Assembly: GCA_034926675.1 (NCBI GenBank)
Contig: JAYFQW010000063.1
Span: 1 to 37,322 of the forward strand
Source of the DNA: Clostridia bacterium
Lineage (GTDB): Bacteria; Bacillota; DTU025
Direction of reading: 5' to 3'
Length of the DNA: 37,322 bases
The notes under the pieces were generated by a model. That model was not told the origin of the DNA. It saw only the letters and a list, made by a program, of their open reading frames with translations, and ran no database searches. Both the position numbers and the translations under genes were made by a program. Positions 3,694-18,393 of the stretch are shown piece after piece; positions within the stretch are counted from its first letter, which is position 1, and every line of letters starts with the position of its first letter.

Positions 3694-4828
3694 TCTTCGG
3701 TTTCGCCTCCGGCCTCGCTCCGCCTGCATCGCTGCTCCCGACGGAGTCGCGCGCAAGAGCGCCCTGCGCGGCTTCCGCCTCCCCAACGCCCTGAGCAGAG
3801 CTAGACGATGCAGCTGGCTCCCCCGCGGCGCCTGCCGTGCGTGCAAGCCCTGTGGCCAACCTGATCTTGGACTCGATCTCGGCAGATAAGTCAGGGTTGT
3901 TCTTGAGAAACGTCCTTGCGTTCTCTTTTCCCTGGCCAAGCCTGAGGTCGCCATATGAGTACCATGTGCCGCTCTTAGTTATTACTCCGGCCGGTTCTCC
4001 TACGTCAAGCATGGCGCCTTCGCGGGAGATCCCCTCGCCGTAGATGATGTCGAACTCGGCCTCCCGGAATGGCGGGGCGACCTTGTTCTTCACGACCTTA
4101 GCGCGCGTGCGGTTGCCTATCTGCTCTGAGCCCTGCTTGAGCGACTCCACGCGCCTCACTTCAAGCCGCACTGACGCGTAGAACTTCAATGCCCGCCCTC
4201 CTGGCGTGATCTCCGGGTTTCCGAACATCACACCCACTTTCTCACGAATCTGGTTGATAAACACTACGCAGGTGTTGGACTTGGAAATCGCCCCGGTCAG
4301 CTTCCGGAGCGCCTGCGACATGAGCCTGGCCTGAAGGCCCACGAAGGAATCTCCCATCTCCCCTTCGATTTCCGACCTTGGCACCAATGCGGCCACTGAG
4401 TCGACTACCACAATATCGATGGCGCCCGAACGCACCAGGGCTTCCGTAATCTCCAGCGCCTGTTCGCCAGTGTCGGGCTGAGATATGAGGAGGTTGTCCA
4501 CATCCACGCCCAGCCTCTTGGCGTAGGCCGCATCAAGGGCATGCTCCGCGTCGATGAACGCGGCGATTCCACCAAGTTTCTGCGCTTCCGCGATTATGTG
4601 AAGCGCGACTGTGGTCTTGCCTGATGACTCAGGGCCGTATATCTCTGCCACCCTTCCGCGGGGCATTCCGCCCACTCCCAGAGCGATGTCGAGGGAGAGC
4701 GCACCGGTGGGTATCACTTCAATGGCCGTGTTCGCGGCCGATTCGCCGAGCCGCATTATTGAACCCTTGCCGAACTCCTTTTCGATCTGCGATAGCGCTG
4801 CCTGAAGCGCCTTATCTTTTTCACTCAA
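3683..4828 (-). CDS. recA: Recombinase RecA
   Basis: RecA is the central homologous recombination and SOS-sensing ATPase. Visible motifs include [15 protein letters not shown], Walker [17 protein letters not shown], Walker [13 protein letters not shown], loop L1 [21 protein letters not shown], and the [14 protein letters not shown] region. The C-terminus carries an Ala/Ser/Gly-rich, low-complexity tail of about 50 residues ending [10 protein letters not shown], longer than the usual acidic tail. The preferred start is TTG at 4828: AAAGGGG lies 9 nt upstream and the protein then begins [12 protein letters not shown], as in relatives (381 residues). An in-frame ATG at 4855 would add nine residues but has no ribosome site. 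recX follows with an 11-nt overlap. A promoter and LexA-type box lie immediately upstream. Identity is certain. Confidence 0.97.
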
Positions 4829-4864
4829 AGCTGATCGCCCCTTTCCCATCCACATCGCACTTCA

Positions 4865-4893
4865 ATTATACCATACCATCCGCACACATGTTC
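4865..4893 (-). promoter_or_regulatory. recA promoter
   Basis: On the minus strand TATAAT (4870-4865) is a perfect -10. The -35 position 17 nt upstream is GAACAT (4893-4888), poor as a -35 but part of the LexA-type box. The promoter starts only 17 nt after the thpR stop and about 37 nt before the recA TTG start. Confidence 0.7.
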
Positions 4894-4894
4894 G
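4881..4894 (-). promoter_or_regulatory. LexA/DinR (SOS) box overlapping the recA -35
   Basis: CGAACATGTGTGCG on the minus strand fits the Gram-positive LexA box CGAACNNNNGTTCG except for one base in the second half-site (GTGC instead of GTTC). It covers the -35 region, where LexA binding would block polymerase, so SOS induction of recA-recX is expected. Confidence 0.7.
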
Positions 4895-4910
4895 CCACGC
4901 TGGCAGCGCT

Positions 4911-5480
4911 CTACGCCCGGAGTTTGAGTTCTGAAAGCGTGGTATAGATGGGCCCAGCGGGAGTGAGAGTGCTCGCGACGATGTGCACGCTATCCACTAG
5001 CATGCTTCCAAAAGAGGCGCCAGCACTGCAAGCCAAAGCCTTGGAGACGGCTGCACCTGCCGATTCTCCCCTCGCTCTTCCTATAGTCAGGTGGGGCCGG
5101 AACGCCTTGTCGGCCCCAGGAAACCCGGAAGCGATGGTGCTATCGTCGATCGCTAGGGCAATCCTTGAAAGCTCCTCGGCGCCGCCGCGGACCCCCACCC
5201 AGAGAACGCGAGGCCTGCTCACATTGGGAAACGCGCCTGCCCCCGCGAAGCCCACACGGAACTGCCTTCCACCGGCCAGAGCCCCTCCCACCGCGGCCTG
5301 CAATGCGGGAATGCGGGAGCGCTCAGTATCCCCGAGGAACTTGAGGGTGAGATGGAGGTTACAGACCTCCACCCATTTCACAGAGGAATCGATAGTTTCC
5401 ATTGCCCTCACATACTCTGCAATAGCGTCTGCCGCGTCTCCGTGCAGCCGCACTGCGATGAAAGCCCGCACGCTCGCCAC
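4911..5480 (-). CDS. thpR: RNA 2',3'-cyclic phosphodiesterase ThpR (2H/LigT family)
   Basis: This is a 189-residue member of the 2H phosphoesterase family. The two catalytic HxTx tetrads are present: HLTL (H43, T45, in NLHLTLKFLGDT) and HLTI (H130, T132, in FRPHLTIGRAR). The N-terminus RAFIAVRL is also typical. Family members hydrolyse 2',3'-cyclic phosphates at RNA ends or show in vitro ligation of tRNA halves; the physiological role is unclear in most bacteria. The start is GTG at 5480 with AGGTGGTGA just upstream. It lies 30 nt after the cinA stop and is followed at once by the recA promoter, so it is probably the last gene of the ftsH-like/cinA transcript. The order cinA-thpR-recA occurs in many Bacillota. 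Confidence 0.92.
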   Translation of the reverse strand: MASVRAFIAVRLHGDAADAIAEYVRAMETIDSSVKWVEVCNLHLTLKFLGDTERSRIPALQAAVGGALAGGRQFRVGFAGAGAFPNVSRPRVLWVGVRGGAEELSRIALAIDDSTIASGFPGADKAFRPHLTIGRARGESAGAAVSKALACSAGASFGSMLVDSVHIVASTLTPAGPIYTTLSELKLRA

Positions 5481-5510
5481 ACTATCACCACCTGCATAGG
5501 AATTCCAGGT

Positions 5511-6845
5511 TCACCTCGGGATTCCTCTATCGCCGCCGTCCCCCGAGTGGGTGATTTCTGCGCCATTCCCGGGCGATTCGGGGTATGCTTCCTCAAGATG
5601 ACGCCTGATGAGGTCCAGCGAGAAGCTGCAGGCACGGTTTCTCACCGACTCTCTGTCTCCATTGAAGCGAATCCTCGCAGCTATGACCCGCGTCATCCTG
5701 GCGTCAACCAACCCGAAGTGAACGAGCCCAACGGGCTTGTCCTGGCTGCCTCCTCCGGGTCCTGCGATGCCAGTGATCGATAGCGAAATCCGCGCGCCAG
5801 ATGCGTTTGCTGCGCCCCGCGCCATTCTGATCGCTGATTCGCGGCTCACCGCTCCGTGAACAGCCAGAGTGTTTTCATCCACTCCGAGTTCCTCGTTCTT
5901 GGACCGGTTGCTGTAGGTAACGAAGCCACGCTCGAAATAGTCAGAGCTCCCCGGAATCGAAGTCAGCTTTCCGGCCAGAAGCCCTCCAGTGCAGGACTCA
6001 GCGGTGCAGATCGTAAGCCCCGCCCGACGCAGGCAGCGGCCCACCACACTCGCGAGCGTGTCGGCCTCGCCTCCATAGGCGAACCTGCCCAGCCTGCGGC
6101 GGACCTCCTCTTCCACACCATCCAGCATGGCATCAGCGGCAGCCTCTGTGGCAGCCCGCGCCGTGATGCGCACTTCACACTCACCGTCGCCGGCGTATGT
6201 AGCTGCACTCGGGTTGTCGCGGCCGTGCGCAAGGTCGAGTATGAGCTGTTCGAGGCGGGATTCGCCGATCCCGATGGTCCTGACTGTCCTCGACCTGATC
6301 GCCTCAACCCCGCGCTCGTTCCTTAGGTACTCCCGCAGGTAGCTCGTGACCCATCCATCCATCATGAGCTTCATCTCCCGTGGGACTCCAGGCATGCACA
6401 CGACCCGCTTGACACCCTGCTTGAACAGGACTCCCGGGGCAGTTCCGATTGGGTTGGGAATTGCCTGTCCGGCCCCTGACTCCGGAACCAACGCCTGCTT
6501 CCGGTTGGACTCAGGCATGGGTGTTCCTCTGGATGTGAACATCGTCCGAAGGTGCAGCAGAGCCTCTGCATTCTCCACCAGTTCCACTCCAAGGACATCC
6601 GCCACCGTCTCCTTGGTGAGGTCATCCTCGGTTGGACCCAGACCGCCAGTGACCATGATCACGTCCGCCCGCTCCAGCGCGTCTCTTACAACAGACGAGA
6701 GCCTGTCGTGGTTATCTCCTATTGTCGTCTTGCGATAGAGGGAAAACCCGAGCCCGGCCAGGGCTCGGGCGATGTATGCCGCATTGGTGTCCACTATCTG
6801 GCCAAGCAGCAGTTCAGTCCCTACCGACACTATCTCCGCCTTCAT
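5511..6845 (-). CDS. cinA: CinA: competence/damage-inducible protein with nicotinamide-nucleotide amidase domain
   Basis: The 444-residue protein has the full two-domain form. The N-terminal molybdopterin-binding-like (COG1058) domain begins MKAEIVSVGTELLLGQIVDTN and contains TGGLGPTEDDLT and PGVPREMKLMMDGW. The C-terminal PncC-type domain has CTAESCTGGLLAGKLTSIPGS, YSNRSKNEELGV, GAVSRESA and SITGIAGPGGG; in characterised relatives it deamidates NMN for NAD salvage, while the N-terminal domain can act as an ADP-ribose pyrophosphatase. The ATG at 6845 has a GGGGGTG ribosome site. The gene follows the FtsH-like gene after 27 nt and precedes thpR by 30 nt, suggesting one operon. Location next to recA is conserved in Bacillota and in competent streptococci. 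No defects are visible. Confidence 0.95.
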   Translation of the reverse strand: MKAEIVSVGTELLLGQIVDTNAAYIARALAGLGFSLYRKTTIGDNHDRLSSVVRDALERADVIMVTGGLGPTEDDLTKETVADVLGVELVENAEALLHLRTMFTSRGTPMPESNRKQALVPESGAGQAIPNPIGTAPGVLFKQGVKRVVCMPGVPREMKLMMDGWVTSYLREYLRNERGVEAIRSRTVRTIGIGESRLEQLILDLAHGRDNPSAATYAGDGECEVRITARAATEAAADAMLDGVEEEVRRRLGRFAYGGEADTLASVVGRCLRRAGLTICTAESCTGGLLAGKLTSIPGSSDYFERGFVTYSNRSKNEELGVDENTLAVHGAVSRESAIRMARGAANASGARISLSITGIAGPGGGSQDKPVGLVHFGLVDARMTRVIAARIRFNGDRESVRNRACSFSLDLIRRHLEEAYPESPGNGAEITHSGDGGDRGIPR

Positions 6846-9787: not shown

Positions 9788-10696
9788 CTACTTGTACTGC
9801 CTTCTCTCCGCCTCGCGCAGTTCCCCGAGAATGGCAAGATAGTGAGAATAGCGGCTGTAAGGAATCCTACCCTCCATGACAGCGGCCTTGACTGCACACT
9901 CTGGCTCGGCGTCATGAACGCATCCTATGAACTTGCAGCCCGGCGCAAGGCCACGCATCTCGGGGAATGCCGGCCACAGATCTCGGGGCTTCATGGAATC
10001 AATGTCGAGGACCGAGAACCCAGGCGAGTCCGCGACCAACCCGCCCGAATCAAGAGGGATTAGCCGAACCTCACGCGTGGTATGCCTTCCCCGGCCTATC
10101 CTGGCGCTCAACTGTCCCTCCGCAAGGTTGTGGCCTGGTTGGACTGCGTTTAGAAGTGCGGATTTCCCTGCGCCCGAAGGCCCCGAGAACACCGAGATCC
10201 TGTTGGCCAGAGCAGCAATCACCTCCGTGATGCCCTGGCCCGTACGCACGCTCGTGGGCATCACCTGATAACCCACGTCTGAGTAGGTGGCCATCATATC
10301 CGCACAGCCCGACGGGCCAGCAAGATCCATCTTGGTCACGCAGATCACGGCGTGCAGAGAAGCCTGCTCCACAAGGACCAGTATTCTGTCGAGAAGGTTC
10401 AGGTTGGGGCTGGGCTCGGCCGCAGCCATCACAACCACTGCCTGGTCCACATTGGCGATGAGCGGCCTTGCGAGGCAGGTCGTTCTCGGAAGGATCTCCT
10501 CTACGATTCCGCCGTCGGCATCACGCGTCACGCGGACCGAGTCCCCCACTGCCACGCCGTCCTGGCGTTTCTTCACATTTCCCCTGGCAGCACAGGGTAT
10601 AGTCTCATGGCCTATGAGAACCCAACAGATGCCGCCAGACACCCTCACGATGATCCCAGTATCACACGTCCTGCACTCTGATGAGATTGCCGTCAA
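9788..10696 (-). CDS. rsgA: Small ribosomal subunit biogenesis GTPase RsgA
   Basis: RsgA is a circularly permuted GTPase acting late in 30S maturation. The 302-residue sequence shows an N-terminal OB-fold region, then the GTPase motifs in permuted order: G4 TKMD (121-124), G1 GPSGAGKS (172-179) and G3 DSPG (223-226). The C-terminal zinc knuckle has C254, C259, H261 and C267. The start is TTG at 10696 with GAGG 6 nt upstream, which makes a 35-nt overlap with the end of the kinase gene; GTG codons further in are possible alternatives. The overlap with the kinase gene suggests coupled translation. In B. subtilis the corresponding kinase PrkC phosphorylates RsgA (CpgA), so the pairing has a functional basis in relatives. 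Confidence 0.94.
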   Translation of the reverse strand: MTAISSECRTCDTGIIVRVSGGICWVLIGHETIPCAARGNVKKRQDGVAVGDSVRVTRDADGGIVEEILPRTTCLARPLIANVDQAVVVMAAAEPSPNLNLLDRILVLVEQASLHAVICVTKMDLAGPSGCADMMATYSDVGYQVMPTSVRTGQGITEVIAALANRISVFSGPSGAGKSALLNAVQPGHNLAEGQLSARIGRGRHTTREVRLIPLDSGGLVADSPGFSVLDIDSMKPRDLWPAFPEMRGLAPGCKFIGCVHDAEPECAVKAAVMEGRIPYSRYSHYLAILGELREAERRQYK

Positions 10697-12635
10697 CCCA
10701 CACCTCGATCTTCCCAGGCCCGTACACCTCTACGACATAGCGTATGGAATCGCCGGGCCGGTGAGATTTCGGGCCATAGCTTATCCTCTCACCGTAGCTG
10801 TCGATCACCTTGAGCATAACCTCCTGCACTTCAGGCCCTGCAGGGACCTGGTAGCTCACTTCGAACTTTCGCGGACTGGAATCGGATCCTGAGTCTCCAC
10901 CGCCAGACCTCTCCGCAAGCACAAGGTCCACTGCGGCGCCTGGTTCGGCCTGCTGGTATGGCCCTGGACGCTGCTCCACGACTGTTCCAGCCTCGTAGAG
11001 GATACTGAATTTCGAAGTGACCTGGCCGACAGCGTAGCCAGCTCGGCCAAGGGCTTCCCGCGCCTGATCGAGTGTCATCCCAATCACAAGGGGGATCTCA
11101 GCTGGAGCTGGCGGCGGTCCCGATGAGAGCGTGATGTCGACCTTGGACCCCTTCGGCACGTACATGCCAACCTCAGGCTCCTGCGCGATTATCTTGCCGG
11201 TGGAAACGTCTGAGTGGTATCCAGTCTTCTGCTCGCCCAGCGACAGCCTCATTCCCTCCAGCTCGAACTTGGCCTCTCTCACGGACTTGTTGAACAGGTC
11301 GGGTACAGTGACCATCTCCGGGCCAAGGCTCACTGTTACCCTTACTACGGAGTTCACCTTGCGTTTCGTCCCCTTCGGAGGGTCTTGGTCGATGATGTGA
11401 TTGTAGTCCACCGTGTCGTCATACCTTTTCGCAGACGAGTCAAGGGTGAGTCGATTCTGCCTCGCGGTGCTTTCCGCGTCCGGCAGTGTCATTCCCACGA
11501 AACCCGGAACGGCCACTTCGGCAACTTGTATCCAGTCTCTGAATGCCTTGAGCCCAACTGCCGCCGCACCGGCGAGCACAAGAAGGACAACCAGAGCGGA
11601 TGCCAATACTCCTGCGCGCCGCGGTTTCGATCCTCGCCTGTGATTGTCGTTCGCCACCTTGTTGGTTGCCTCCCCCGCCACACCGAATGGCCGAGTAGTG
11701 TCAAGCGGGTTCTGTGCTGCAGTGGTGGGCAGATCATTCGCAGCAGAAGCCTGCTCGCTTACTGGCTGGCCCGGGATAGCCATCACGTCGCCCGGCCTGC
11801 CGGGCTCTCCCTGTCGCGCCCTGGCCATCGCCTGACTGATGCCATTTCGAAACGCCCGTGCAGTCCGCCACCTGCGTTCCGGATCCTTCTCCAGTGCCCG
11901 GAGAATCACCCGCTCAAGCTCGACTGGCATCGCCGGATTGAGAGCCCTCGGAGGCATCGGCTCATCCTGGATGTGCTTGAGCGCTACCGCCACCTGAGTG
12001 TCGCCTGCAAATGGCAGTTTCCCTGTGAGGATCTCATACATCACTACGCCTAGGGAGTATATGTCTGACTCGGCAGTAGCCGCCGCACCCCGCGCCTGCT
12101 CAGGAGATGTGTAGTTCACCGTTCCTATCACGGTTCCGGTCTCCGTAAGCGCACTCGCCGATGCCGCCCTGGCGATCCCGAAATCGGCGACCTTCACTCG
12201 GCCTTCCGTGTTTATCAGTATGTTGTGTGGCTTGATGTCCCGGTGGATTATCCCATTCGAATGAGCGTGTTCCAACGCGCCAAGGATCTGTTCAGTGACA
12301 TTCACTGCCTGGTCGACAGTGAGCTTTCCGTCGCGCACTATTACATCGTGGAGGGTGAGCCCATTTACCCATTCCATGACGATGTAGTTGGACCCGGCCT
12401 CCTCACCTACATCATACACATTGACAACGTTTGGATGTGAGAGGCCAGCAGCGCTCTGCGCCTCTCTTCGAAATCTCTCCCGAAACTCATGATCCGAGGC
12501 GAACTGGGGCCTCAGAACCTTAACGGCAACTATCCGGTTGAGAAGGGTGTCCTTGGAGCGGTACACCACCGCCATGCCGCCCTCTCCAACAGTCTCGAGA
12601 AGAGAATACCTGCCTCCCAAGAGCTCGTTGGTCAC
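10662..12635 (-). CDS. prkC: PASTA-domain Ser/Thr protein kinase (PrkC/PknB)
   Basis: The 657-residue membrane kinase is of the type that senses muropeptides or lipid II and phosphorylates division, cell-wall and translation proteins. Kinase motifs: glycine loop VGEGGMAVVY, lysine in VAVKVL, catalytic HRDIKPHNI, DFGIA and the activation segment ending YTSPEQARG. A Pro/Ala-rich linker leads to one membrane helix (AGVLASALVVLLVLAGAAAVGL). Outside follow three PASTA repeats (starting VPGFVGMT, VPDLFNKS and IPLVIGMT) and an extra C-terminal beta-rich domain of about 80 residues ending WVDGNLIRVQDV. The start is GTG at 12635 with GGAGG 7 nt upstream, overlapping the pbpA stop by 4 nt (GTGA). The cognate phosphatase gene lies three genes upstream in the same run. 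Confidence 0.96.
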   Translation of the reverse strand: MTNELLGGRYSLLETVGEGGMAVVYRSKDTLLNRIVAVKVLRPQFASDHEFRERFRREAQSAAGLSHPNVVNVYDVGEEAGSNYIVMEWVNGLTLHDVIVRDGKLTVDQAVNVTEQILGALEHAHSNGIIHRDIKPHNILINTEGRVKVADFGIARAASASALTETGTVIGTVNYTSPEQARGAAATAESDIYSLGVVMYEILTGKLPFAGDTQVAVALKHIQDEPMPPRALNPAMPVELERVILRALEKDPERRWRTARAFRNGISQAMARARQGEPGRPGDVMAIPGQPVSEQASAANDLPTTAAQNPLDTTRPFGVAGEATNKVANDNHRRGSKPRRAGVLASALVVLLVLAGAAAVGLKAFRDWIQVAEVAVPGFVGMTLPDAESTARQNRLTLDSSAKRYDDTVDYNHIIDQDPPKGTKRKVNSVVRVTVSLGPEMVTVPDLFNKSVREAKFELEGMRLSLGEQKTGYHSDVSTGKIIAQEPEVGMYVPKGSKVDITLSSGPPPAPAEIPLVIGMTLDQAREALGRAGYAVGQVTSKFSILYEAGTVVEQRPGPYQQAEPGAAVDLVLAERSGGGDSGSDSSPRKFEVSYQVPAGPEVQEVMLKVIDSYGERISYGPKSHRPGDSIRYVVEVYGPGKIEVWVDGNLIRVQDV

Positions 12636-14041
12636 CCGCTCACCTCCATCTCGTCCAAAGCTGTTACAAGTATATCACCTGCCAGAGGAGCCGCAGCCGT
12701 TCCTCCGGCGCCCGCATTCTCCAGCACGATGGCCATGGCCACCCGGCGCTCCCCAGATCCGTCCACCGCAAACCCCGCAAACCACGCGTGAGGCTCACCG
12801 TGAGGGTTCTGGGCGGTCCCCGTCTTGCCTCCGATATCGTAACCCGGCCTGCCAGCCCTTACTGCAGTACCGCGTTCCACCGCGGCCCTCATCGCCTCAG
12901 TGACTAACGCTGCTGCCGCCGGGCTTAGGGGCCTAGGAAGCTCGCGGGGCCTTCGGACTCGCACCAGATGGCCATCGGGTTCCGCTATCTCCCGAACTAC
13001 ATACGGCATCATCATGGCCCCGCCATTCACCGCCGCCGCAATTGCCATCGCCATGTGCATAGGAGTCACCACGAGGTCGCCCTGGCCTATGCCAAGCTGC
13101 CCCAGGATGTCGCCGGATTGAGTGAGCTTTGCCATGCCGAGCCTCGCGGAGGCGGTGGGGATGTCAAACGGCGCAGGCCTATCCAGAAAGTAGCGGGCGA
13201 GCGCCTCCGGAAGAGACGAGCCAAGCCGCAGTGCTAGTTCCACGGCCACCACGTTGCATGAGACCGCAACGGCGGTCTTGAGATCAACGCTCCCGTGGGC
13301 GCCGCCCGGGTCCCGAATCACTGTGCCGCCAGCCCGAATAGACCCAGAACACTGGAACACCTCATCGACGCCGGCCACGCCTGCGTCGATGGCTGCCGCC
13401 ACGATCGCAGTCTTGATGGTTGATCCAGGTGGATATAGCCCTGTCGTTGCCCTGCAGAGGAGTGGCGAATCCTCCCTCGACAGGGTGAAACCCCACATCT
13501 CCTCAGCTCCGTATGGAATGAACCATGGGCTGCTCGCGACCGCCAGGGCCTCGCCGGTGGCGGCGTTTAAGACCACTGCCGCTCCACGTCGCCCGGCGAG
13601 GGCCCTCTCGCAGGCCCGCTGCACCCCAGAGCTGATCGTAAGCCCGAGAGAGTAGCCGCGAGCACGATTCCCAGCAAGAGTCCAGAGCAATCCAGCCCGA
13701 TTCAGTAGGGGCTGCCTCCCCATAAGCCACGGATCATAGGCGGCCTCAAGCCCTGCCTTGCCAATGGAAGGCCCTGCGTACCCGATCAGCGGCGCCAAAG
13801 AACCAGGCCCGTTGTAGAATCGGGACAACAGCCCGGGCGCGTAGGAGCCGCTCACCACATTCCCATCCCGATCCAAGATGCTCCCTCGGATTATCTCTCT
13901 ATCCACATCGGCAACGCGAGGGTTCCCGGGGCTCGTAGCCAGGCGGTCCGCCTTAATCGCCTGGTAGTACGTGGCCCCCAGCGCCAACACACAGGCGCCA
14001 AGCAGCCATGCCTGCACAAGACGGCGGATGCGCCGGTTCAC
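12632..14041 (-). CDS. pbpA: Class B penicillin-binding protein (PbpA/FtsI type transpeptidase)
   Basis: This 469-residue protein has one N-terminal membrane helix (LVQAWLLGACVLALGATYY), a short dimerisation region (REIIRGSILDRDGNVV) and a transpeptidase domain. The three active-site motifs are complete: SxxK as STIK (207-210), SxN as SCN (261-263) and KTG (406-408, in GGKTGTAQ). The length and the reduced N-terminal domain resemble actinobacterial PbpA more than the large PBP2/FtsI proteins. It cross-links peptidoglycan and should partner the SEDS glycosyltransferase encoded just upstream, whose stop overlaps this ATG by 4 nt (ATGA). The downstream kinase overlaps it by another 4 nt. Such strict coupling suggests equimolar synthesis of a SEDS-bPBP-kinase module. 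Confidence 0.94.
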   Translation of the reverse strand: MNRRIRRLVQAWLLGACVLALGATYYQAIKADRLATSPGNPRVADVDREIIRGSILDRDGNVVSGSYAPGLLSRFYNGPGSLAPLIGYAGPSIGKAGLEAAYDPWLMGRQPLLNRAGLLWTLAGNRARGYSLGLTISSGVQRACERALAGRRGAAVVLNAATGEALAVASSPWFIPYGAEEMWGFTLSREDSPLLCRATTGLYPPGSTIKTAIVAAAIDAGVAGVDEVFQCSGSIRAGGTVIRDPGGAHGSVDLKTAVAVSCNVVAVELALRLGSSLPEALARYFLDRPAPFDIPTASARLGMAKLTQSGDILGQLGIGQGDLVVTPMHMAMAIAAAVNGGAMMMPYVVREIAEPDGHLVRVRRPRELPRPLSPAAAALVTEAMRAAVERGTAVRAGRPGYDIGGKTGTAQNPHGEPHAWFAGFAVDGSGERRVAMAIVLENAGAGGTAAAPLAGDILVTALDEMEVSG

Positions 14042-15393
14042 TGCGAATCACCGCCATCTCCTAGGCGTGGCGCCATGCCGGCAGCAGACCTGCCTACTCT
14101 GTTCGAGGCCATATCGCCCTCGACCTCGGCGCTTTCCGTGGACCCGATCAAGAGGCCGGCAAGGGCAAGGCTGGCCACCATGGAGCTTCCCCCGTAACTC
14201 GCAAAAGGCAGAGTCACTCCGGTGAGCGGCAGGATTCCAAGGTTTCCTCCTATGATAACGAACGTCTGCACAGCTATCAGATTGGCGGCCCCAATGGCCG
14301 ACAGCGCCATGAACGAGGTCCTAGCCCTCATCGCCCTTCCGTACCCATGCCCCACAAATGCCATGTATACCAGGATGAGTCCGATAGAGCCTGAGAGCCC
14401 GATCTCCTCTGCAGCTGCTGCAAACGACATATCTGTCACCGCAGCAGGCACCTGCCAGGGCGAACCGCTCCCGTACCCACGGCCCAGAATTCCTCCACTC
14501 GCTACGGCATACAGCGACTGCACCACCTGATATCCAGCCCCAGACGGGTCAGCCCAGGGGTTAATCCAGGATGTAAATCTCGTGCGGACATGGCCAAACA
14601 CGGCAGCGGCGATGATCACGATCACCACCCCAAGCCCGAGACCGCCCCCCCCGATTACGCGGTTGCCTGAGGCCGCGTACAGCATGGCAACACAGGAGAT
14701 GTAGAGAACCATGGCTGTTCCCACATCTCGCTGCGCCGCGATAAGGCCCATCACCAGAGCCCATATCATCACCGTGCGCCTGGCTCGAACGCACGACCAC
14801 ACCTTGCCGATGCCCAGCCTGGCTTCACAGTCAGGCTCGGCAGTGGGAAGGCTCGACAGGCCGTCTGCGCCAAGAATCACACACGCAACCTTCACAAACT
14901 CAGACGGCTGAAACCCCACGCCCCCCCAAAGCAGCCAGGATCTTGCTCCGCCTCGCTCTAGGCCCACCGCCAGAGTGATCACAAGCAGAGCGACCGACCC
15001 CACTGCGGCAGCCGCCGAAAACTTGGAGATGCGGCCAGATCGCTGCAGGAAGACGACACACGCAAGCGCGATGCTCCCTATCCAGATGAGCCCCACATGC
15101 TTTGCTGCCAGATCCGGCCTCAGCCGCGCCACCGTGACACAGCCCATGACAGTTGCCGCTGCAGAAAGCGGCATAAGGATCTGATCGCCCTGGAAACCCA
15201 GCAAGACAAATGCGGCATGGCATAGGGCAAAGGCGACAGATGCCGCGAAACACAGCCCGAGCGGCTCGCCCAATGCCCGCCCAGTGGCAGCAAAGGAAAG
15301 CGAGGCGCCCTCAACGATGGCAAGCAGCATGACCAGCCCGATGAGGGAGCGTTCAACCTCTCTGTGTGAGCGTCTGACAGTTCCTAGGCCCAT
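14038..15393 (-). CDS. rodA: SEDS peptidoglycan glycosyltransferase (RodA/FtsW family)
   Basis: A 451-residue polytopic membrane protein with about ten hydrophobic segments. Signature segments include GGVGFQPSEFVKVA, the QRDVGTAMVLY stretch (usually QPDLGTA), NPWADPSGAGYQVVQSLYA, and the C-terminal GGNLGILPLTGVTLPFASYGGSS. The family polymerises lipid II glycan chains together with a class B PBP. The change from QPDLGTA to QRDVGTA is conservative for the acidic residue. FtsW and RodA cannot be separated with certainty by eye; the actinobacterial-like operon context favours RodA. The ATG at 15393 overlaps the phosphatase gene by 10 nt, with GGAG about 11 nt upstream. A hydrophilic C-terminal tail of about 35 residues follows the last helix. 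Confidence 0.93.
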   Translation of the reverse strand: MGLGTVRRSHREVERSLIGLVMLLAIVEGASLSFAATGRALGEPLGLCFAASVAFALCHAAFVLLGFQGDQILMPLSAAATVMGCVTVARLRPDLAAKHVGLIWIGSIALACVVFLQRSGRISKFSAAAAVGSVALLVITLAVGLERGGARSWLLWGGVGFQPSEFVKVACVILGADGLSSLPTAEPDCEARLGIGKVWSCVRARRTVMIWALVMGLIAAQRDVGTAMVLYISCVAMLYAASGNRVIGGGGLGLGVVIVIIAAAVFGHVRTRFTSWINPWADPSGAGYQVVQSLYAVASGGILGRGYGSGSPWQVPAAVTDMSFAAAAEEIGLSGSIGLILVYMAFVGHGYGRAMRARTSFMALSAIGAANLIAVQTFVIIGGNLGILPLTGVTLPFASYGGSSMVASLALAGLLIGSTESAEVEGDMASNRVGRSAAGMAPRLGDGGDSQ

Positions 15394-16106
15394 CCTATAT
15401 CCGACTCCTCGATAGTCCCCATTGCAACGGTTATGTTATCGTGCCCGCCCCTGGCACAGGCAAGACCCACCAGAAGAGCACATGCATCCTGGGGCCCCTC
15501 GGCCGTGCTTACCACAGCAGCCATCTCCTGTGCGCCTATGACATCGTGAAAACCGTCAGTGGACAGCAGGATCACATCGCCAGGCGCCACGCAGCGCTCC
15601 CGAGTGTCGATGTCGAGCCTGTCGCAGAAACCAAGCGCCCGCGTTATGGCGTGCCTCTGCGGATGTGTCTCAGCCTCCTCCGGGGTGATCAGGCCGGAAC
15701 GAACGAGCTCTCCCACCACCGAGTGATCCGTCGTCAGCTGCGATACTACGTCGCCGCGAACCAGGTATGCCCTGGAATCCCCCACATGCCCAAGGTGGAG
15801 AACGCCTTTCCTCACTGCGGCAACTGTGAGGGTAGTGCCCATGCCGGCGAGAGATTCAGAACTCCGAGACGCCTCAAGCACTCCCCAGTTTGCTGCAGCT
15901 ATGCACGCCGCGACATCAACATCATCTCCAGAGTCCCATTGTCCGCAGTACGAGGCCACTGTGCGGATAGCAATGCCCGCAGCCACCTCGCCCGCATTGT
16001 GACCACCCATTCCATCAGCCACCGCCAGACACTGCCTATCGGCGAAACATGCATCTTCATTCGTATCGCGCATCAATCCAGTATCGGTGGCGCACCCGAG
16101 CAGCAT
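15384..16106 (-). CDS. prpC: PP2C-family Ser/Thr protein phosphatase (PrpC/PstP)
   Basis: A 240-residue PPM/PP2C phosphatase that reverses phosphorylation by the PASTA kinase of the same cluster. Metal-binding and catalytic motifs are complete: RDTNEDA, VADGMGGHNAGEVAA, GMGTTLTV, GHVGDSRAYL, LTTDHSVV, ILLSTDGFHD and GGHDNITVA. It is soluble: the soluble Bacillus PrpC form rather than the actinobacterial PstP with its membrane tail. The ATG at 16106 follows AAGG at 8 nt; the frame continues upstream but without family similarity. A tiny membrane-protein gene ends 5 nt before this start, with its last codons forming the ribosome site. The end overlaps the SEDS gene by 10 nt. Confidence 0.95.
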   Translation of the reverse strand: MLLGCATDTGLMRDTNEDACFADRQCLAVADGMGGHNAGEVAAGIAIRTVASYCGQWDSGDDVDVAACIAAANWGVLEASRSSESLAGMGTTLTVAAVRKGVLHLGHVGDSRAYLVRGDVVSQLTTDHSVVGELVRSGLITPEEAETHPQRHAITRALGFCDRLDIDTRERCVAPGDVILLSTDGFHDVIGAQEMAAVVSTAEGPQDACALLVGLACARGGHDNITVAMGTIEESDIGWA

Positions 16107-16111
16107 GATTA

Positions 16112-16249
16112 TCACCTTCCACTGCGCACGGCCTGGTCTTCCCTCCGGACTGCAGCCTCTGCTAGAATCCCATGGCACACTCTGAATAGGAACAGATAGA
16201 GCGCCGCAATGCATGCCATTCTAAACAGTGTGATCACAATCTGAGCCAA
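16112..16249 (-). CDS. 45-residue membrane protein resembling the N-terminal anchor of FhaB, without an FHA domain
   Basis: A small gene starting at TTG 16249, preceded by a strong GGGAGGG at 8 nt spacing, and ending with TGA 5 nt before the phosphatase ATG. The product has one hydrophobic helix, with pieces LAQIVITLFRMACIAAL and YLFLFRVCHGIL, then a short charged tail (EAAVRREDQAVRSGR). The LxLFRxxxLxALYLFLFRV pattern resembles the membrane anchor at the start of FHA-domain proteins (FhaB) that lie upstream of pstP in Actinobacteria and of prpC-type genes in some Clostridia. No FHA domain follows. It overlaps the 3' end of rlmN by 29 nt. It is either a functional small membrane protein or what remains of an FHA gene; the good ribosome site and tight spacing favour translation. 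Confidence 0.55.
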   Translation of the reverse strand: MAQIVITLFRMACIAALYLFLFRVCHGILAEAAVRREDQAVRSGR

Positions 16250-17294
16250 GACTACCGCCCTCCCTGAGCCACCTTCGCCGGAGCTGCCCACAGGCAGCGT
16301 CGATATCTGCGCCCATCTCTCGCCTGATAGTTGTCTCGATTCCGGACGTGCGAAGGATCTTCCCAAACCTCTCAGCTGCATCGGCCGAAGACCTCTCGAG
16401 CCCCGTTTCCGCCACTGGATTCAGCCTTATAAGGTTCACATGGCATAGCGTGCCTCGTATCAGAGCAGCAAGCATCGCTGCGTGATCTGAGGAGTCATTC
16501 ACCCCGGAGATCAGCGAGTATTCGTAGGTAACCCGCCTGCCAGTGATCTCCGCATACTCACTGCACGCGTTCACGAGTTCCTTTACTGGGTATGTCCTGT
16601 TGATCTTCATGATCGCGGTTCTCGTGTCATCATCTGGTGCATGGAGCGACACCGAGAGAGTAATGGGAAGACCCTCGCCGGAAAGCTTCCGGATGCCCGG
16701 AAGTATCCCACATGTTGAAACCGTGATATGCCGATACCCGATCCCAAAGCCCCGGTCCCAGTTGATGAGCTTGATGAACTTGAGTACGTTTTCATAGTTG
16801 GCAAGGGGCTCTCCCGACCCCATCATCACGACCGAACTGACTCGCTCGTTTCCCACGTCATTGCTCACGGCGAGAATCTGGTCGATCATCTCGCTGCATT
16901 CAAGGCTGCGAACTAGCCCCCCGATGCCAGAGGCGCAGAAGGAGCATCCCATTGCGCAGCCCACCTGCGACGACACGCAGAGGCTCAGCCCGTAATCGTG
17001 TGGCATCAGGACTGTCTCGACTGCGTTGCCGTCAGCTAGCCCGACAAGGTATTTCCGCGTCCCGTCCGTCGACCTGACCTTCGCGATCGCCTCCGAGGGG
17101 CGAATGGGAGTCGCCTCCGCGAGTAACTGCCTGAGGCGGATTGGAAGGTTGGTCATGCTGGCGTACGATGAGAGACGCGCACGATAGAGCCACTCAAGGG
17201 TCTGGTCCGCCCTGAAGGCGGGTTCCCCGAGAGAAGCGAAAAAGGCCCTGCATTCAGAGACCGACATGCTCTTGATATCCACGCTAGTAATCAT
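16221..17294 (-). CDS. rlmN: Dual-specificity 23S rRNA/tRNA m2A methyltransferase RlmN
   Basis: RlmN is the radical-SAM enzyme that methylates C2 of A2503 in 23S rRNA and A37 of some tRNAs. The protein has 357 residues. The Fe-S motif CAMGCSFC is present, as are VVMMGSGEPLANYENV, HITVSTCGI, LPITLSVSLHAPDD and YEYSLISGVND. The methyl-carrying cysteine lies in ADIDAACGQLR near the end, so both essential cysteine sites are intact. The ATG at 17294 gives the usual length; its ribosome site (GGTGGA) is close and only moderate, and a GTG four codons later is an alternative. The open frame continues upstream without family similarity. It heads the kinase/cell-wall gene run, as in other Bacillota where rlmN precedes prpC. 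Confidence 0.95.
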   Translation of the reverse strand: MITSVDIKSMSVSECRAFFASLGEPAFRADQTLEWLYRARLSSYASMTNLPIRLRQLLAEATPIRPSEAIAKVRSTDGTRKYLVGLADGNAVETVLMPHDYGLSLCVSSQVGCAMGCSFCASGIGGLVRSLECSEMIDQILAVSNDVGNERVSSVVMMGSGEPLANYENVLKFIKLINWDRGFGIGYRHITVSTCGILPGIRKLSGEGLPITLSVSLHAPDDDTRTAIMKINRTYPVKELVNACSEYAEITGRRVTYEYSLISGVNDSSDHAAMLAALIRGTLCHVNLIRLNPVAETGLERSSADAAERFGKILRTSGIETTIRREMGADIDAACGQLRRRWLREGGSLGSDCDHTV

Positions 17295-17375
17295 TCCACC
17301 AAACTCACATGATTCCTTTGTATCATGAGCCCGTGCGGCAGTTCCCACCCCAGAGTCCTGGGCCAGACAGCAAGA

Positions 17376-17403
17376 CAGGCGGTCCGCGCTTCCGGGCCGC
17401 CTG
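17376..17403 (-). terminator. Hairpin after the nucleoside ABC transporter operon
   Basis: A 10-bp stem (CAGGCGG/CCGCCTG extended by three more pairs, one of them G-T) with an 8-nt loop lies 37 nt after the last permease stop and 82 nt before rlmN. On the minus strand it is followed by TCTTGCTGTCT, only moderately T-rich. It probably terminates the transporter transcript. No clear promoter for rlmN could be picked in the rest of the 145-nt gap. Confidence 0.5.
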
Positions 17404-17439
17404 CATCCTGCGGGGAGCAGCCATGGCCTCCACGAGGCC

Positions 17440-18393
17440 CTAGGCGCCGCCTCTCCTGATGTAGGGCTTGCCGCTCGCAGCCGGCGGTGTCGAACGCCCG
17501 ATGATTCCTGCAAGAGCCGCCATGGTAATGATGTACGGCAGCATCAACAGGAACTCCTGGGGAATCGCCCTGAAGCCCCAGGTCTGCGCTGTAAGCTGGA
17601 TCGCGTCGGCCAATCCGAATAGGAGGGCCGCCAACATGGCGCCCACAGGCGTCCACTTGCCGAATATCACCGCGGCCAGCGCGATGAAGCCGCGGCCAGA
17701 ACTCATGCCCTCGCGAAACAGGGAGAGCTGCCCCAGTGATAGTGTTACGCCGCCCATCCCTGCTAGAAAGCCGCTGAGTATTACGCAGAAGTAGCGTATC
17801 CCCGCCACGTTCACACCAACCGTGTCGGCGGCCTCTGGGTGCTCGCCGCACGCACGGATCCGAAGGCCCAGAGGAGTGCGGAACAGCACGATCTGCCCTA
17901 GAACTGCGACTATTGGGGCGAGATACACCGGAGGTGTATTCCTTCCGAGGATGTCGCCGAGTATCGGTGTCTTGAGGATGAACGGGATGGTCCAGTTTGC
18001 AAGCTTAGTGACGGGCTCGGTCTGCCCGGCACGATCGAAAATGGCGCGGAGCAGGAACCCAGTTAAGGCCGCAGCCAGCAGGTTGATGGCAACGCCAGAC
18101 ACGGTCTGGTTTGCCCTGTATTTGATGCTGGCCACCGCGTGTATCGAGGCCATCAGTGCACCTGCAATAGCGCCCATGAGAAAGCCGATCCAGGCGTTCT
18201 TGGTGATGTATGAGAAGAGAACGCCGAAGAAGGCGCCGGTCAGCATCATGCCATCAAGCCCGATGTTCACCACTCCGGATCTCTCGCTGAATACTCCGCC
18301 CACAGCAGTGAGAATCAGAGGGGAGGCAAGGAACACAGTGGATGCCAAGAGGTCTATGGTAAGGTACTGAAGCATCTCCCAGTCGATGTTCAT
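17440..18393 (-). CDS. nupQ: Nucleoside ABC transporter permease, NupQ/YufQ type
   Basis: A 317-residue permease of the branched-chain/ribose-like class (BPD_transp_2) with about nine hydrophobic segments. The order [63 protein letters not shown] and [20 protein letters not shown] is characteristic of the second permease of BMP-dependent nucleoside importers such as Bacillus NupNOPQ (formerly YufNOPQ). The [10 protein letters not shown] segment is the cytoplasmic coupling loop. The ATG at 18393 has GGGAGGGAG upstream and overlaps the stop of the first permease gene by 4 nt (ATGA). It is the last gene of the transporter operon and is followed by a hairpin. Confidence 0.92.

Follow-up and report, generated by a model that had tools for sequence, protein, structure and literature searches.

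The window analysed here, a stretch of 37,322 nucleotides from a Clostridia bacterium, carries on its minus strand genes for a PP2C phosphatase, a SEDS polymerase, a class B penicillin-binding protein (PBP) and a PASTA kinase, in that order as assigned by Pfam (Table 1); relatives with the same order were found. Directly before the phosphatase gene prpC (pstP), in the slot that heads such rodA-pbpA-pknB clusters, lies a 45-codon frame whose translation is LAQIVITLFRMACIAALYLFLFRVCHGILAEAAVRREDQAVRSGR followed by a stop codon. The frame shares 29 nt with the 3' end of rlmN, and 5 nt separate its stop codon from the prpC ATG (16106). Its length, ribosome-binding site, TTG start and distance from the phosphatase gene are all as described in the original prediction, which had been made from the letters of this DNA alone. 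Both wall synthesis genes downstream retain their signature residues, the SEDS protein having an intact TD motif and the PbpA-type PBP intact STIK, SCN and KTG motifs.

Table 1. The microprotein gene, its sequence elements and its neighbours in the window.
Feature	Position	Strand	Details
rlmN, upstream neighbour	16221..17513	-	Pfam PF04055, PF21016
Ribosome-binding site GGGAGGG	16258..16264	-	8 nt upstream of TTG
Microprotein gene, putative FhaB anchor without FHA domain	16112..16249	-	45 aa, TTG start
Hydrophobic helix (predicted), codons 4-29	16163..16240	-	Conserved R10, L17-Y18, F20-L21
prpC/pstP, PP2C phosphatase	15384..16106	-	Pfam PF13672, PF00481
ftsW/rodA-type SEDS polymerase	14038..15393	-	Pfam PF01098; third SEDS of genome
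pbpA-type class B PBP	12632..14041	-	Pfam PF00905, PF21922
prkC/pknB kinase, three PASTA domains	10662..12635	-	Pfam PF00069, PF03793

The product of the short frame is predicted to be a single membrane helix. Kyte-Doolittle hydropathy is highest across residues 4 to 22 (2.35 over a 19-residue window), and AlphaFold2, given the microprotein as a single sequence, returned one helix spanning residues 2 to 44 with a mean pLDDT of 93. No Pfam or NCBIfam family matched the microprotein, and neither did the curated FhaB/FipA model NF049868. In agreement with the original prediction that no FHA domain follows the helix, PF00498 had no match in the frame or anywhere else in the genome from which the window derives.

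The class to which the window belongs comprises 12 genomes from one order and three families (f1, f2 and f3). A short frame is present in the same slot in all eight f1 genomes, drawn from five genera, and in the single f2 genome (9/9), and because the same slot holds the same short frame across both families, the frame is more than a chance opening. The class microproteins are 45 to 64 aa long and share the pattern R.....aLYxFL. The position of the start is homologous throughout the class and the codon varies, being TTG in the window, GTG in G001, ATG in G002 and G005 to G007, ATG one codon earlier in G008, and probably CTG elsewhere. In G003 and G004 (L163 and L164), a CTG at the homologous position with GGGGG 8 nt upstream represents a possible start; in the G004 frame an in-frame ATG is also present upstream of the CTG.

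Nonsynonymous changes in the helix were fewer than the neutral expectation, obtained from randomly placed changes, in six of seven genome pairs (p = 0.0002 to 0.04), the seven pairs sharing genomes with one another. The closest pair, G002 and G007, counts against this, as constraint there was not significant (p = 0.42). The tails of the microproteins differ in both length and sequence between genomes, and no inactivated copy was found among the nine f1 and f2 genomes. We conclude from these substitution patterns that the helix is under purifying selection; the tails are not conserved. The comparisons confirm the 45-codon frame as a real gene for a putative single-helix membrane microprotein, its translation being inferred from selection only.

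Full FhaB occupies this slot in Actinobacteria and in many other families of Bacillota. In the latter it is a protein of 140 to 190 aa, in which an N-terminal helix of the same kind is followed by an FHA domain; an FhaA gene often lies upstream. An actinobacterial example is FhaB/FipA according to NCBIfam (NF049868, E = 2.7e-61). A profile was built from 27 FhaB anchors, with no class member among them, and searched against 23,317 open frames in six-frame translations of 140 loci. FhaB genes aside, it matched the bare anchor of G032 and all but one of the nine class microproteins (E between 4e-7 and 0.9 in this search, and up to 1.2 over the six-frame searches together), with only one other frame detected (E = 0.42). 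When whole genomes were searched with an FhaB-only profile, the microprotein was the sole match in seven of the nine f1 and f2 genomes, including that of the window (E = 0.0046), and nothing was matched in the three f3 genomes. Such matches involve a hydrophobic helix of about 30 residues and have modest scores, and were specific in the genomes tested: across all 12 class genomes no other membrane helix was matched at E values up to 10.

The class microproteins also share with FhaB anchors the slot, the start and the positions of the arginine, the LY pair and the F-aliphatic pair. FHA domains are absent from 12/12 class genomes, against their presence in 24/61 of the wider sample. Descent of the microprotein from FhaB (FipA) by loss of the FHA domain is well supported by these sequence comparisons. 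The likeness to the anchor of FHA proteins, first proposed from the helix pattern, is borne out by the FhaB-only profile match, by the shared slot and by the full FhaB found there elsewhere.

We searched 398 genomes of the phylum for anchors and inspected the resulting loci. Bare anchors were recovered in the eight genomes of family f24 (about 50 to 54 aa), in G184 (36 aa counted from its ATG) and in two Bacillota metagenome-assembled genomes (MAGs), L127 and L091 (32 aa). In all of these an FhaA-kind FHA gene is still present upstream, and among the bare-anchor lineages complete loss of FHA domains was seen only in the class of the window. Weak profile matches in G336, G343, G053, G190, G071 and G306 lie outside such clusters and were taken as chance.

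Four changes are required to explain the bare state on a tree of RlmN and PrpC, and well-supported branches force three of them. Although the tree is unrooted, change from FhaB to bare anchor is the simpler direction because full FhaB is widespread in the phylum and in Actinobacteria. Bare anchors would therefore have arisen about four times, at least three of them on supported branches. The original prediction had offered a stable microprotein family and an FHA gene cut back to its anchor as alternatives, to be told apart by aligning the interval in relatives. That comparison recovered full FHA genes in other lineages together with repeated short forms in the class, and both alternatives prove to be true together, in 9/9 f1 and f2 genomes and in three further lineages.

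We next consider the genes with which the anchor occurs. For co-occurrence counts, 61 relatives were picked by kinship alone. A PbpA-type PBP is encoded by 28 of them, 27 being recognised by PF21922 above the cut-off and G012 by tblastn, and an anchored open reading frame was found in all 28 (10 bare anchors, 17 FhaB and 1 fusion). Among the 33 relatives without PbpA, of which 32 could be scored, no anchor adjoins prpC; G017, which has ftsW and a weakly similar open reading frame, is borderline. The frame in question (L177), which lies some 330 nt before prpC in a cluster with ftsW but no pbpA, encodes a 126-aa product with a hydrophobic N-terminal segment. Its score of 4.6 bits against an FhaB model is only suggestive of an anchor with a decayed FHA domain.

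A genome scan by PrpC alignment yielded at least 80 named loci. Among those listed that carry ftsW and/or pbpA, the anchor is present in 40 of 41 scorable cases, a few of them scored by visual inspection where the profile had found nothing. The sole scorable exception among them is L078, a Bacillota MAG with FhaA, prpC, ftsW, pbpA and prkC and no recognisable anchor, which counts against a strict association, as do L105, L080 and L126, where the anchor occurs with only one of ftsW and pbpA detected nearby. In L105, a Desulfosporosinus MAG, FhaB and pbpA lie beside prpC and ftsW is missing between them. The FhaB of this MAG resembles that of G014, a similarity that places the class of the window with Bacillota, broadly taken. 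The listed named loci that have an anchor and no ftsW-pbpA all stop at a contig edge just past prpC.

Gene loss and rearrangement follow the same pattern. From f3, a sister family in the same order, ftsW, pbpA and the microprotein have all disappeared together, and rlmN-prpC-prkC remains; f3 genomes have two SEDS genes each, against three in the rest of the class except G004, which has two. G037 and G047 have prpC at a separate place in the genome, and an anchored FhaB directly precedes ftsW-pbpA. An anchored FhaB likewise precedes ftsW-pbpA in G094, G156, G203, G206, G256, G340 and G358, where prpC is not in the retrieved stretch. Loci retrieved for their arrangement were kept out of the counts because most had been chosen for holding an anchor. 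In G015 and G031, by contrast, the FHA gene before prpC has no helix, and there is no ftsW-pbpA. Three genomes of family f31 (L219, L260 and L261) encode anchor, FHA and FtsW as one protein of 553 to 596 aa. For these fusions, of which that in L219 occupies positions 4692-6353 of the minus strand, prpC was not found nearby. Separately, in three Coriobacteriia loci (L100, L110 and L111) the ftsW and pbpA matches fall in one open frame of 927 to 1286 aa, a predicted SEDS-class B PBP fusion.

In a tree test, 5/5 independent contrasts on supported branches agreed (sign test p = 0.06). By its pattern of occurrence, the anchor tracks the ftsW-pbpA pair and not prpC-prkC. The presence of the helix wherever ftsW/rodA and pbpA sit in or near the cluster suggests that this pair is its real partner. 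The original prediction had not anticipated this preference for ftsW-pbpA over the kinase and phosphatase genes.

We consider it rather probable, judging from neighbourhood and co-occurrence, that the microprotein is a minimal FhaB acting through its helix on the adjacent SEDS-class B PBP wall synthase. It would be a small membrane partner of the pair encoded just downstream, its helix packing against FtsW and/or PbpA and so helping to hold, place or tune the peptidoglycan synthase, in whichever direction that effect may run. In most lineages the FHA domain would bring in a phosphothreonine signal sent by the PASTA kinase; in the lineage of the window that input would have gone and the membrane part alone been kept. 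FhaB and the anchor-FHA-FtsW fusions offer an analogy for the topology, with the C-terminal tail expected on the cytoplasmic side of the membrane. Precedents exist for helices that act on SEDS proteins. The helix of RagB, together with its disordered region, is needed for RodA binding and is sufficient in vivo (PMC12457691), and the YneA helix targets FtsW (PMC13396833). Against our proposal, the published function of mycobacterial FhaB/FipA is attributed to the FHA domain, to PknA and to FtsZ, and not to the helix (PMC3989709), and FhaB is presented as a reader of phosphothreonine with FtsZ as a binding partner (PMC3989709; PMC11898655). In the literature searched, no claim about the FhaB helix was found.

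The bare anchor might instead be the partner of PrpC or PrkC, holding or tuning membrane signalling. Its gene does lie directly before prpC, with probable translational coupling, and Pkn kinases phosphorylate FhaB in mycobacteria and corynebacteria (PMC3989709). We nonetheless regard this as unlikely, given that rlmN-prpC-prkC occurs without the anchor in about 30 relatives, sister family f3 included, and that several genomes have an anchored FhaB with ftsW-pbpA away from prpC. A frame serving prpC alone was rejected, as f3 and some 30 further relatives have prpC in its usual position and no such frame. The close packing between rlmN and prpC would also suit a coupling leader that carries ribosomes from one gene to the next and whose peptide is useless. 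Such a leader has no need of a constrained amino-acid sequence in its helix or of a match to FhaB anchors; moreover, rlmN lies directly before prpC with no such frame in f3 and many other genomes, and in G001, G002 and G005 to G007 the frame stops 26 to 34 nt before the position aligned to the PrpC start. This makes the leader quite improbable.

A decaying fhaB remnant that is still open by chance would fit both the disappearance of FHA from the whole class and the variable tails. It would not be expected to show purifying selection on the helix across five genera, nor to lack inactivated copies in all nine genomes, and the same reduction has occurred some four times and is stably kept in a second family, represented by eight genomes; we hold decay to be very improbable. 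More doubtful still is an unrelated small membrane protein that came to occupy the FhaB slot by chance. The similarity is indeed confined to about 30 residues of hydrophobic helix, with a modest E value in the window, but the FhaB-only profile picked out no other membrane helix in the 12 class genomes, and slot, start and conserved positions all coincide with those of the FhaB anchor.

The conserved pstP-rodA-pbpA-pknA-pknB cluster of mycobacteria includes the gene for FhaB. Deletion of the FHA domain about four times with retention of the helix, together with the persistence of the anchored protein alongside ftsW-pbpA where the cluster is broken up, suggests that the functional core conserved in FhaB is its helix. 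We therefore entertain, at slightly less than even confidence, a wider proposal: that the RodA/FtsW-PbpA type of wall synthase in Actinobacteria and many Bacillota generally has the FhaB helix as its third subunit, and that the FHA domain is a phospho-control addition, dropped about four times to leave natural helix-only versions. If this is so, FhaB would have to be seen primarily as a partner of the SEDS-PBP pair and only secondarily as a reader of phosphothreonine. Microproteins of this class, at 32 to 66 aa, with non-ATG starts and an overlap with rlmN, are easily overlooked by gene finders.

Several known systems invite comparison. FtsL and FtsB (DivIC) are single-pass partners of the divisome FtsW-PBP pair; their periplasmic coiled coil is absent from the microprotein, and the Pfam search, which gave no match, revealed no sequence relation to them. 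YneA of Bacillus subtilis is an inhibitor induced by the SOS response; it carries an extracellular LysM domain and is not known to be encoded in any pbpA-prkC cluster. The likeness to YneA lies in a single helix reaching FtsW (PMC13396833). RagB (YrrS), also from B. subtilis, is similarly a small membrane protein with one helix and a presumed action on a SEDS polymerase, but differs in its extracytoplasmic disordered region and DUF1515, neither of which was found in the microprotein (no Pfam match, and predicted helix throughout), and in a topology opposite to that expected here. Compared with FhaB/FipA (NF049868, Rv0019c type), the microprotein has 45 aa instead of about 150 and is without FHA domain or linker, but the two share the N-terminal helix with R/K...LYxF[LIV], the slot before pstP/prpC and a cluster with rodA/ftsW, pbpA and pknB/prkC.
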